Positions 8,307-45,937 of a DNA stretch of 64,000 bases are shown here, one piece after another. The stretch is taken from NCBI GenBank assembly GCA_903862935.1, contig CAIOZY010000040.1, positions 124,001-188,000 on the forward strand, written 5' to 3'. Position 1 is the stretch's first letter, and every line of letters begins with the position of its first letter. The notes beneath the pieces were generated by a model. That model was given only the letters and a program-made list of their open reading frames with translations. It did not search any database and was not told where the DNA came from. The stretch is from an uncultured Opitutaceae bacterium (GTDB lineage Bacteria; Verrucomicrobiota; Verrucomicrobiia; Opitutales; Opitutaceae). Made by a program: the position numbers and the translations under genes.

Positions 8307-9832
8307 TCAGGGGCCGGCTTGCCCCCCAACGCCGAAGCCCTGTTCAGCGGATTTGCGGCGCGGGGAGATTCTTCGGACCGCCGTGAATTTGGCCCGGAAA
8401 AGCTCGTCCAGGAGATTCCGGACCTCCCGCGGCACGCGCTCGACGAGGCCCCCGAGGGCGGGCAGCCCCGCCTCGGCCGCCTCCTCGTCCCGGGCGGGCG
8501 CGCGGTCCGCCGATTCGGAGGCCTGCTTCTCGGACGACTCCGCGAGGAAGGCGGCCTCATCCGTTTCCCCGGGCCAGGCCGGGGCGGCCTCATCCTCTTC
8601 GGCCCCGTTCGACTGGGGCGCACTCGCCAGAGGGCCGGCTTCGGGCCTCACCCCAAGGGCCGAGGCGAGCCGCTCCTCGAGCCGGTCAATCAGGTCTTTT
8701 TTTTTTCGTCCCCGGCCGGGGCCTCGTCCGCGAGGGCGGCGAGTTCCTTGATCAGCGTATCGATAGAGCGCGAGCGGCTGGCCTCGACTGCCTTGAGCAG
8801 CGTGACCTCGAAATTGATTTTCTCCGCAAGCCCCAGCTTGACCCCGCCCTCGCCCTCCCGGAGGGCGTCCAAGAGCCGGGTCAGTTGCTCGGTCGTGAGG
8901 GCGGACCCGAGGCGGTCGCTCTTGCCGCCCTTGGCGATCGCGTCCAAGAGGGCCGAGCGCACCAGGGCCTGCAGGTCGGTGAGGAGCCGGACCAGGTCCC
9001 GGCCGTTCTCGTCGAACTCGTCCACCAAGGCGATGAGCTTCCGGTCGTCGCCGGCGGCGACCGCCGCCGCGAGTTCAGCGACCTTCCCCTCGGCCACGAG
9101 CCCGTAGACGTCTAGGACATCGGCCTCCGAAATCTCGGTGCCGCAAAACGAGATCATCTGGTCGAGAATCGACTGGGCATCGCGCAAACCGCCGTCGGCC
9201 AAGCGCGCGATGCAGGCGAGGGCCCCGTCCGAGGCCTTGATCTTCTCGCTCTCGGCGATCCGGCGCAGCCGCTCGGCGATCAGCTCCTGCGGGATGGGCT
9301 TCAGGTCGAACCTCTGGCAGCGCGACAGGATCGTCGGGATCACCTTCTGCACATCCGTCGTGGCAAAGACGAACTTCACGTGAGCCGGCGGCTCCTCGAG
9401 GGTCTTCAGGAGCGCGTTGAAGGCCGAAGCCGACAGCATGTGGACCTCGTCGATGATGAAGATCTTGAACTTGCCCTGGGCTGGGGCATAGCGCGCGGTC
9501 TCCCTCAGGTCGCGGACCTGCTCGACGCTGTTGTTGGAGGCCCCGTCGATCTCGATCACGTCTAGGTGGCTGCCCTCGGCGATCGCCACCGCAGCCGGGT
9601 CGTCCAGGGGGAAGTCCACGCGCGGGCCCCCGGAGCAATTCAGGGCCTTGGCAAAGATACGCGCCATGGAGGTCTTGCCCGTGCCGCGCGGCCCGACGAA
9701 GAGATAGGCGTGCGCGATGCGGTTCTTCTGGATCGCGTTCTTCAGGGTCCGGACGACGTGCTCCTGGCCCACGACGTCGTCAAACGTCTGGGGCCGCCAT
9801 TTGCGCGCTATGACCTGGTAGGAGGAAGACAC
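8307..9832 (-). CDS. dnaX: DNA polymerase III tau subunit, full-length product by frameshift/slippage
   Basis: The 380-codon gamma frame ends at 8690 just after an A10 run (8697-8706). A -1 shift in that run joins it to a second frame that reads [15 protein letters not shown] and continues to a TGA at 8307, giving about 508 aa. The extension is acidic and Ala/Glu-rich, then ends in [20 protein letters not shown], which resembles a structured C-terminal domain and keeps a coding-like composition. In other bacteria tau binds the polymerase alpha subunit and the DnaB helicase, and dnaX makes a short gamma by recoding. Either transcriptional slippage (as in Thermus) or ribosomal frameshifting (as in E. 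coli) would fit. The start is GTG at 9832. An alternative is a homopolymer sequencing error that hides a single tau-only frame. Confidence 0.82.
8690..9832 (-). CDS. dnaX: DNA polymerase III gamma subunit (clamp-loader ATPase), unshifted product
   Basis: 380 aa read without a frameshift. It is the AAA+ motor of the clamp loader that places the beta clamp on DNA. Walker A GPRGTGKT is at residues 47-54, the Walker B-like IIDEVHMLS near 130, and sensor 1 ATTDVQK near 170. A single Cys (ALNC, residue 66) remains of the usual zinc module: the CxxC-type cysteines between it and the DVIEID segment are absent, replaced by a Pro/Asp-rich stretch. It ends EKKKT-stop directly after the slippery A run, as expected for a gamma made by recoding. 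It is divergent from the SRP RNA gene. Confidence 0.93.
8697..8706 (-). promoter_or_regulatory. A10 slippery run in dnaX (gamma/tau recoding site)
   Basis: On the coding strand GAA AAA AAA AAG ACC TGA puts ten consecutive A residues two codons before the gamma stop. A net -1 shift (or one added A in the mRNA) leads into the tau frame. Runs of A9 or more are the known signal for transcriptional slippage in Thermus dnaX; A-AAA-AAG is also the E. coli ribosomal heptamer. Confidence 0.78.
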
Positions 9833-9917: not shown

Positions 9918-10018
9918 TCGGCCAGGTGCCATGCATGGGCAGGCGCGTGAACTCCGCCAGGGCCGGAAGGCAGCAACGGTAACGACGTTCTTCCAGTGCC
10001 GTGGAGTGCCTGGCCACT
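9918..10018 (+). ncRNA. ffs: Signal recognition particle RNA, small bacterial (4.5S) type
   Basis: About 100 nt. The universally conserved SRP helix-8 core is present: GTGAACTCCGCCAGGGCCGG then AAGGCAGCAACGGTAACG, with the GGAAG tetraloop region and internal-loop residues. The ends pair GGCCAGG (9920-9926) with CCTGGCC (10009-10015), followed by a short T-run (10020-10024) that could end transcription. It guides Ffh to nascent inner-membrane proteins. Exact ends are approximate (within about 10 nt). Confidence 0.9.
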
Positions 10019-16046: not shown

Positions 16047-17939
16047 ATGAGACTCGGCAAGACAACCCTCCTGGTCGCCCTGCTCGCCGCGGGCCTGGTG
16101 TTCGTCAACTACCTCGCCTCCGTCGTGCCGGCCCGCTTTGACGCGACCGCGGCGAAGGTCTACACCCTGTCCCCGGGCACCCGGGCGATTCTGGGGAAGA
16201 TCAGCGAGCCGGTGCAGCTTGAATTCTACTTCTCCCGAAGCGCCCCGGGCGTGCGGGTCGAGATCAAGAACTACGCCGAGCGCGTGCGCGAGATGCTCCG
16301 CCAGTACGCGAGCGCCTCGCGGGGTCGGATCACGCTGACCGTCATCGACCCGGAGCCCGACACCCCCGAGGAGGAAAAGGCGACGGCCGCGGGCATCCAG
16401 CCGCAGCGCCCGCAGGTCGGGGCCGAGGCCTACTACTTCGGGGTGGTCGCGACCCTCGCCGACCAGCAGCGGGCCATCGCGGCCCTGACCCCGGACCGGG
16501 AGCAGTTCCTTGAGTACGACCTGTCGGAGCTCCTCTACCGGGTCCAGCAGGTCGACAAGAAGAAGCTCGGGCTGATTACGAGCCTCCCCCTGCAGGGCAC
16601 CGCGGGCAACCCCATGATGGGGCAGCAAGGACAGGAGGGGCAGTACATCGTGACCGAATGGGAGGACACCTTTGACATCGTGCCGGTGGAGGCTACGGCC
16701 ACCGAGCTGCCGGCCGGTCTCGACGTCCTGGCGGTCGTCCATCCGCAGAACCTCGCGCCGAGACTGCAGTTCGCGGTCGACCAGTTCCTGCTCTCCGGCA
16801 AACCCGTCTTCATCGCGGTGGACCCCTCCTCCCAGTACTTCAAGCGGATGGGCGCCCAGGCCATGATGTACGGCGGCCCCCCTCCCAACGTCTCGAGCGA
16901 CCTTCCAGCCCTCTTCGGGCCCTGGGGCATCCGATACGAGCCGGAGAAGGTGATCGGCGACAACGGCTCGGCCACCCAGGTCCAGCTGCAGAACGGCACC
17001 CTGGCGCGCGACCCCCTCTGGATCAGCCTGAGCCAGGCGAACTTCAATCCGAAGTCCCTGCCGACCGCTCAGCTCGCCTCGATGCTCTTCATCGAGGCGG
17101 GAAGCGTGGGGCTCAAGTCCGGCAGCGCCCTCACGCTGGTGCCGCTGGTCGAGACCTCCCCGCAGGCCGGGGAGGTGGAGTCGGCCTCGCTGCAGTTCGT
17201 CCAGCCCGACGACGTCGCCCGGCGCGTCAAGCCGTCGGGCAAGAAGACCGTGGCCGCCCTTGTCACCGGGAGATTCACGACGGCCTTTCCAGACGGCGCC
17301 CCGAAGGAGGACAAGCCCGCCGACAGTGCCGCGGCCAAGCCCGCCGAGGACAAGTCCAAGGGCAAGACGGCCGCACCGGCCCCGCTCAAGGCCTCCTCGG
17401 GCACCTCGACCCTGATCGTCGTTGCCGACACCGACTGGCTCTTTGACGACTACAGCCTGAGGAAGTTTAACGTCCTGGGAACGACGGCGGCCGAGCCCCT
17501 CAACGACAACCTCTCCTTCGCCGCTAACTCGCTCGACTTTTTGTCCGGGTCCCAGGACCTGATCTCGATTCGCGGAAAGGGCACCTCGATCCGGCCTTTC
17601 GCGGTCGTCGAGGCGATGGCCGCCCGAGCCGGGGAGAAGTATCGCGAAAAACTTGACGCCCTCGAAGCGCGGCTGAACGAGGTGCAGGCCAAGCTCTCGG
17701 AACTGCGGGACCGCAAAGGCGAGGCCGGCCGCCTGGTGGCAACGCCCGAGGCAGCGCGCGCGATCGAGGATTTCCAGAGGCAGCAGGCGACGCTTCGCGC
17801 CGAGCGCCGGCAGATCCGGCTCGCCCTCCGGGAGGGGATTGACGCCCTTGAGAACCGCCTGCTCGCGATCAACCTGCTCGCTTCCCCGATCCTGGTCTGC
17901 GCATTTGGCCTGTGGTTCTCGCGCCGGCGCAGGCGCTAG
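16047..17939 (+). CDS. GldG-like ABC transporter accessory protein
   Basis: 630 aa. A membrane anchor at the N-terminus (LVALLAAGLVFVNYLASVV, about 7-27) precedes a large extracytoplasmic domain of the GldG/ABC-type uncharacterised transport system family (YTLSPGTRAILGKISEPVQLEFYFSRS), a Lys/Ala-rich low-complexity linker (about 415-450, PADSAAAKPAEDKSKGKTAA) and a C-terminal coiled-coil region plus a final helix (LLASPILVCAFGLW) ending in a basic tail. The two anchors and the ABC neighbours fit a component of an exporter that acts at the envelope. Substrate is not known. Confidence 0.85.
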   Translation: MRLGKTTLLVALLAAGLVFVNYLASVVPARFDATAAKVYTLSPGTRAILGKISEPVQLEFYFSRSAPGVRVEIKNYAERVREMLRQYASASRGRITLTVIDPEPDTPEEEKATAAGIQPQRPQVGAEAYYFGVVATLADQQRAIAALTPDREQFLEYDLSELLYRVQQVDKKKLGLITSLPLQGTAGNPMMGQQGQEGQYIVTEWEDTFDIVPVEATATELPAGLDVLAVVHPQNLAPRLQFAVDQFLLSGKPVFIAVDPSSQYFKRMGAQAMMYGGPPPNVSSDLPALFGPWGIRYEPEKVIGDNGSATQVQLQNGTLARDPLWISLSQANFNPKSLPTAQLASMLFIEAGSVGLKSGSALTLVPLVETSPQAGEVESASLQFVQPDDVARRVKPSGKKTVAALVTGRFTTAFPDGAPKEDKPADSAAAKPAEDKSKGKTAAPAPLKASSGTSTLIVVADTDWLFDDYSLRKFNVLGTTAAEPLNDNLSFAANSLDFLSGSQDLISIRGKGTSIRPFAVVEAMAARAGEKYREKLDALEARLNEVQAKLSELRDRKGEAGRLVATPEAARAIEDFQRQQATLRAERRQIRLALREGIDALENRLLAINLLASPILVCAFGLWFSRRRRR

Positions 17940-43631: not shown

Positions 43632-45937
<2,306 letters not shown>

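Follow-up and report, generated by a model that had tools for sequence, protein, structure and literature searches.

In Thermus thermophilus, dnaX undergoes transcriptional slippage at a run of nine A's (Larsen et al. 2000, via PMC3711429, PMC5009743), where tau is the standard and gamma the slipped product. Gamma is also the shifted product of E. coli dnaX, which relies on ribosomal -1 frameshifting and carries a Shine-Dalgarno-like sequence upstream of the site and a hairpin downstream of it. A reversed layout, in which dnaX consists of two ORFs and tau is the product that needs recoding, has been known since 2013, with 17 genes from 12 genera, nine of them with ten A's (Antonov et al. 2013, PMC3711429); these nine may include an Opitutales gene. 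The same study takes a varying shift direction among orthologues as a sign of transcriptional realignment. A single nucleotide can reverse the roles in dnaX, and a Thermus-like set of tRNA-Lys UUU plus CUU may favour slippage by the polymerase over slippage by the ribosome (Atkins et al. 2016, PMC5009743). Insertion sequence elements with A9 are likewise reported to use slippage (PMC1088944). Judging by titles and the openings of abstracts, neither dnaX of Opitutales nor a dnaX frame that flips within a single order is described among the open-licence matches listed.

The DNA analysed here, referred to as the window, is a stretch of 64,000 nucleotides comprising bases 124001-188000 of contig 40 in a 3,345,969-base (~3.35 Mb) assembly. 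Table 1 presents the features of its dnaX gene. The gamma ORF matches the NCBIfam models PRK05563 (444 bits, cut-off 400) and TIGR02397 (415 bits, cut-off 250) and contains the Pfam domains DNA_pol3_delta2, DNAX_ATPase_lid and DNA_pol3_gamma3, which are the N-terminal domains of DnaX. Inspection of its end reveals the residues GDEKKKT*, with the stop codon two codons downstream of the ten A's, exactly as claimed in a preliminary description of this DNA. That description further proposed that one -1 step leads to a plausible tau end, and this is supported. The -1 frame opens with an 18-residue segment and later reaches a 20-residue segment, which is followed by 22 further residues and the stop. 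Tau, as predicted from the gamma frame, one -1 step and the tail, measures ~508 aa. In the window, tau is the non-standard product and gamma is encoded in the standard frame, a point that the preliminary description leaves unmentioned, as it does the earlier publication of this layout. A search of the assembly for a second full-length dnaX returned none, the three other matches being partial and 33-38% identical.

Table 1. Coordinates of dnaX features, counted from the first base of the window.
Feature	Position	Strand	Basis and remarks
dnaX standard frame = gamma, 380 aa, GTG start	8690..9832	-	ORF and domain matches; stop TGA at 8690-8692
A10 run, candidate slippage site	8697..8706	-	T10 on the + strand; gamma-frame codons GAA AAA AAA AAG
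tau-specific tail, -1 frame, 129 codons after the run	8310..8696	-	homology and purifying selection; stop at 8307-8309
Conserved C-terminal motif of the tau tail, 32 residues	8370..8465	-	consensus over 48 f1 tails
+1-frame stop, few codons past the run	8686..8688	-	read from sequence; product end EKKRPD*

Comparison of the window with the described systems shows features shared with each. Like the dnaX genes of Antonov et al. 2013 (PMC3711429), the window has two ORFs, where an ORF for the DnaX N-terminal part closes directly after the run and the tau tail lies in another frame; the -1 join falls at the poly-A, gamma ends in the standard frame and the arrangement is kept in relatives. With Thermus dnaX it shares a long run of at least nine A's, nearby stops in both frames not used for tau and two tRNA-Lys, as tRNA-Lys UUU and tRNA-Lys CUU are both present in the window's genome. 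In contrast to Thermus, the window and its family have the roles reversed, with tau in the -1 frame. The likeness to E. coli dnaX lies in the strongly shift-prone heptamer A_AAA_AAG, which is in phase inside the A10 run. Here, however, tau rather than gamma is the shifted product, and stimulators of the E. coli kind are weak or unclear.

The family of the window, f1, appears to be the Opitutaceae (Verrucomicrobiota), given that the named dnaX sequences closest to the window's come from Opitutaceae MAGs. Among 50 f1 loci the run is A10 in 40 and A9 in nine, and one (G030) is cut by a contig end but seems to resume on a second contig, where it has A10 and the layout of the others. The preliminary description had suggested comparing related dnaX genes for a conserved run with split frames, and this is what they contain: all 48 interpretable f1 loci combine an A9 or A10 run with a tail in the -1 frame. 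The layout is found in the single-contig genomes G015, G016, G025 and G032, in three further genomes (G378, G381, G382) and in four named Opitutaceae or Opitutae MAG loci (L034-L037), where L035 is identical to L012 in site and tail and the two may be one species. In the nine A9 loci the run begins one base later in the codon, which leaves the frame relation unchanged; throughout f1 the codon phase of the run end is constant. The base that follows the run in the 49 loci that have one is G in 40 (A_AAA_AAG) and C in nine (A_AAA_AAC). Shine-Dalgarno cores lie just upstream of the run in 19 of 48 f1 loci versus 2954 of 16311 (18%) same-phase in-gene windows, which is a roughly twofold enrichment, and a looser Shine-Dalgarno score gives 33 of 48 versus 25 of 96 controls. 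Downstream folding has a mean z of -0.53 in f1 (n=48) versus -0.09 in controls (n=96), with -0.44 for the window; no strong conserved hairpin was seen downstream of the run in this folding test of 48 f1 loci.

The tail was next to be assessed as a coding part in its own right. In the six closest f1 pairs, the -1 frame tail has a pN/pS of 0.15-0.43, and differences per site reach 0.43 at the third codon position versus 0.17 and 0.14 at the other two; pN is smaller than pS in 1121 of 1128 f1 tail pairs. The tail is under purifying selection. The consensus end of the 48 f1 tails reads LP.ld.Lv.riPa..re.ldeLFRAkF..VrR. A tail profile, seeded with these 48 tails and built only on sequence downstream of the run, was iterated for eight rounds, which matched 85 (seed profile alone, including the 48 seeds), 123, 145, 155, 158, 162, 161 and 158 order loci; the last round was used. 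An iterated HMM with the gamma end included in the segments had been discarded, as its profile drifted into gamma. The final profile matches 158 of 172 loci in the order, 109 of 122 outside f1, with no reverse-strand match and none in 60 outgroup loci. Of the 155 loci with a run, 153 have the match in their longest frame; the remaining two have it in frame 0, which falls a few codons short of the longest. The homology of the tail to other DnaX proteins, on which the preliminary description had made its reading depend, is found in 37 matches outside f1 that lie in gamma's own frame, where the tail is the ordinary C-terminus of a single-frame DnaX. Pfam and NCBIfam gave no match for the tail up to E 1. 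Aligned by hhalign, the end of the f1 tail and that of the outgroup tau match weakly (16 columns, probability 49.5%), which is at most suggestive of a likeness between the two.

The run itself is rare. Runs of A9 or longer occur on either strand in only four places of the window's assembly, where dnaX is the sole A10. The f1 gamma genes use AAA for 238 of their 934 lysines and GAA for 283 of their 1068 glutamates; GAG and AAG are preferred, and an unbroken A run therefore goes against their codon bias. The dnaX site nonetheless has an unbroken A9 or A10 in 49 of 50 f1 loci. Exactly one A10 is present in 17 of the 31 family genomes searched, and this is the dnaX site in 16 of the 17 (13 assigned from positions, three from separate inspection); the dnaX run of the 17th genome (G021) is an A9. 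Of ten further regions taken up, L356 is an A10 outside dnaX, and L353 and L354 were left out.

To understand how the site behaves beyond the family, 172 dnaX loci from 171 genomes of the order were compared, namely 143 of the 207 matching order genomes together with 28 f1 genomes. Families f6, f7 and f25-f28 (small genomes) and parts of others, such as f2, f4, f16, f18 and f21, were left out, and L154 was dropped as a duplicate of G056. A run of at least nine A's is present at the site in 166 of 172 loci (A10 in 122, A9 in 39, A11 in four, A13 in one). The remaining loci have A8 in two cases and no run in four, one of which is a contig end, so that three uncut loci lack a run of seven or more A's. 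The run starts in all three codon phases (0, 1 and 2) among these loci. In 149 of 164 loci neither closed frame extends beyond 15 codons, and in 157 neither extends beyond 30; in the other seven, one non-tau frame stays open for more than 30 codons.

The frame of the tail is less constant. Relative to gamma it is -1 in 93, 0 in 38 (including L030, which is unreliable) and +1 in 27 of 158 loci; outside f1 the counts are 45, 37 and 27. It is -1 in f1, f3, f4, f11 and f21, +1 in f16, 0 in f2, f5 and seven one-locus families, and mixed in f8, f19, f20, f22 and f24. In contrast to the dnaX genes in the cited portions of Antonov et al. 2013 (PMC3711429), which are -1 only, this one order contains -1, 0 and +1 layouts. 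Loci with the run and a tail in frame 0, for example in f2, f5, f19 and f20, have the Thermus layout. Two gene trees, with 167 order rows given a state, indicate at least 15 frame changes. This number falls to 11 once states seen once per family are dropped and to six among the 23 genomes in ~10 contigs or fewer, and the same six remain without G017 (22 genomes). L030 (NN ahead of the run, apparent frame 0), L023 (contig end) and L228, L230 and L242 (which end soon after the run) were left without a frame state, and ten of the 13 non-f1 loci without a tail match took their tree state from the longest frame. Changes are also seen between some fairly close relatives. In f8, G132 (A11, -1) and G112 (A10, +1) have gammas that are 93.8% identical, and in f20, G137 (A9, 0) and G103 (A10, +1) have gammas that are 90.3% identical; these four are many-contig drafts, where single one-A differences may be errors. 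The combination of a run conserved across the order with a flipping frame may be the new part of these results.

Relatives with A9 or A11 and a single intact frame, which the preliminary description named as evidence against its reading, do exist, as many f19 and f20 loci have A9 and G106 has A11. Most of them, however, keep the run and the fast-closing other frames, and they are therefore read as a Thermus-like arrangement of the same device rather than as a contradiction of it.

Outside the order the site looks different. The outgroup consists of 60 loci from 123 matching genomes of the same class, three of them cut by contig ends; the 57 uncut loci each have one frame, 442 aa or longer. Runs of A8 or longer at the site number zero in the 59 outgroup loci that reach it (L333 ends before it), and longer A runs lie elsewhere in two outgroup loci (A8 near aa 542, A9 near aa 553). 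On the tree, the order forms one side of a branch with an SH-aLRT of 100, under a long-branch warning that includes L333 at that very split. The candidate slippage site in dnaX is probably ancestral to the order. In the phylum outside the class, 76 genomes were covered and six with short open frames inspected. In family f77 of another class (L359, L360 and L361 from G398, G392 and G444), all three loci combine A10 with a gamma in frame 0 and a long frame in -1, an arrangement that is probably independent of the order's and is likened to it by layout. Of the other three, two lack a run and have one frame of 427 aa, and one is cut.

The layout, its conservation, the selection on the tail, the frame flips and the rarity of the run are observed directly at these loci. 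We consider it likely that they reflect programmed slippage, mainly transcriptional, which would make two clamp-loader subunits from the one dnaX. The run is conserved and the frame is not, which points to slippage by RNA polymerase, as in Thermus. Transcriptional slippage needs a long run and is indifferent to codon phase and direction, and this matches what is conserved. In the window, RNA polymerase would slip on the A10 run and yield mRNAs with varying numbers of A's, where faithful-type copies (A10, A13) would encode gamma and those longer by one A or shorter by two (A11, A14, A8) would encode tau. Copies with A9 or A12 would reach a stop within a few codons and yield a further protein of gamma length. 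Selection would then act on a run of ~9-11 A's with one open and two soon-closing frames, leaving the standard frame free to change. Slippage, its mainly transcriptional nature, the ratio of its products and what tau and gamma do are our inferences from these sequence comparisons. The A9 at a transposase orfA/orfB junction elsewhere in the assembly and the two tRNA-Lys are counted in favour of transcriptional slippage. Counted against the favoured reading are the constant -1 frame, the prevalence of A_AAA_AAG, the upstream Shine-Dalgarno enrichment and the slightly stronger downstream folding in f1, as well as the three uncut run-less order loci, one of which (G197) has its tail in -1, the two A8 loci and the seven of 164 loci with an open non-tau frame. 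Transcriptional slippage and ribosomal shifting may both act.

A ribosomal origin of tau in f1, by programmed -1 frameshifting at A_AAA_AAG in the manner of E. coli with the roles reversed, is the most substantial rival, although we regard it as unlikely. The constant -1 direction, the constant phase of the run end and the heptamer, present in 40 of 49 f1 loci with a run, fit ribosomal shifting as well, as do the Shine-Dalgarno cores enriched upstream; a Chlorobium candidate of the reversed kind has E. coli-like stimulators (Atkins 2016, PMC5009743). Ribosomal shifting, however, needs only 7 nt, yet the run is kept at 9-10 against the preference for GAG and AAG, and nine f1 loci have A_AAA_AAC, which is much less shift-prone in E. 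coli (PMC5009743). The homologous site in other families calls for a +1 shift or none, a strong conserved hairpin was not seen at the f1 sites and the second tRNA-Lys (CUU) in the window's genome also speaks against it. A different ribosomal route, in which ribosomes slide along the poly-A run and exit in any frame, could serve every layout in the order, and ribosomes have been documented to slide on A runs (Koutmou et al. 2015, PMC4363877). In vitro, though, A11 gave robust product and A9 or A10 little (PMC4363877), whereas 161 of the 172 loci here have A9 or A10, which leaves this route very improbable.

Changes at the level of the DNA were considered alongside these. Under phase variation, tract length would change at replication and cells would switch tau on and off; long homopolymers do mutate, and the run differs by one base in the fairly close pairs G132/G112 and G103/G137. 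Random switching should nevertheless leave other states in f1, where the -1 state holds in all 48 interpretable loci and each of the nine A9 runs is shifted at its start with the frame relation kept, and we accordingly give phase variation very little credence. The preliminary description regarded a sequencing error as the main alternative, where a miscounted run, or a pseudogene, would have broken one true frame. Homopolymers are indeed prone to such errors. The recurrence of the arrangement in independent genomes, some of them single-contig, excludes this explanation for practical purposes, and the purifying selection on the tail and the assembly's single full-length dnaX match speak against it further.

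Building on transcriptional slippage as the favoured reading, we put forward, with slightly less than even confidence, that the dnaX A-run may be a frame-agnostic splitter. The run and its one open and two closed frames would be kept by selection and the default frame would flip (at least 15 times) by small changes at the site, each layout setting its own tau:gamma ratio with tau drawn from faithful, +1-A or -1-A transcripts. Should this hold, the full-length replisome subunit of Opitutaceae would be made only from mis-transcribed mRNA. Full-length DnaX in many families of the order is unreadable in one genomic frame, and a plain gene caller would be expected to show only the short form in such families. 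The occurrence of tau in -1, 0 and +1 at one homologous site constitutes a natural series that can separate transcriptional from ribosomal recoding and allows a test of the tau:gamma ratio that is needed. The order's dnaX also bears out a statement made by Atkins et al. 2016 (PMC5009743).

Several further observations concern individual loci. L165 (G197, f21) has lost the A run (CTA AAA AAC GCC TGA) and its homologous tail still lies in -1 behind A_AAA_AAC, which could mean that ribosomal shifting has taken over, or could be due to decay or a fault in the assembly. A plasmid search with gamma gave 203 matching records, all below 60% identity. Adjoining dnaX in the window and divergent to it is a bacterial small SRP RNA gene at 9920-10018 on the + strand.

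The other A9 runs of the assembly each have a setting of their own. In L349 (G000:C23:56400-58300) the run occupies contig bases 57365-57373 of the minus strand, at the junction between orfA, with HTH_Tnp_1 at its cut-off, and orfB, with rve, of a transposase that we take to be IS3-like; the long frame is +1 relative to orfA. The A9 in L348 (G000:C2, run 45897-45905) adjoins a short GC-rich hairpin, and that in L350 (G000:C48, run 16837-16845) serves, on the opposite strand, as the T-tract of a strong terminator-like hairpin with 15 pairs.
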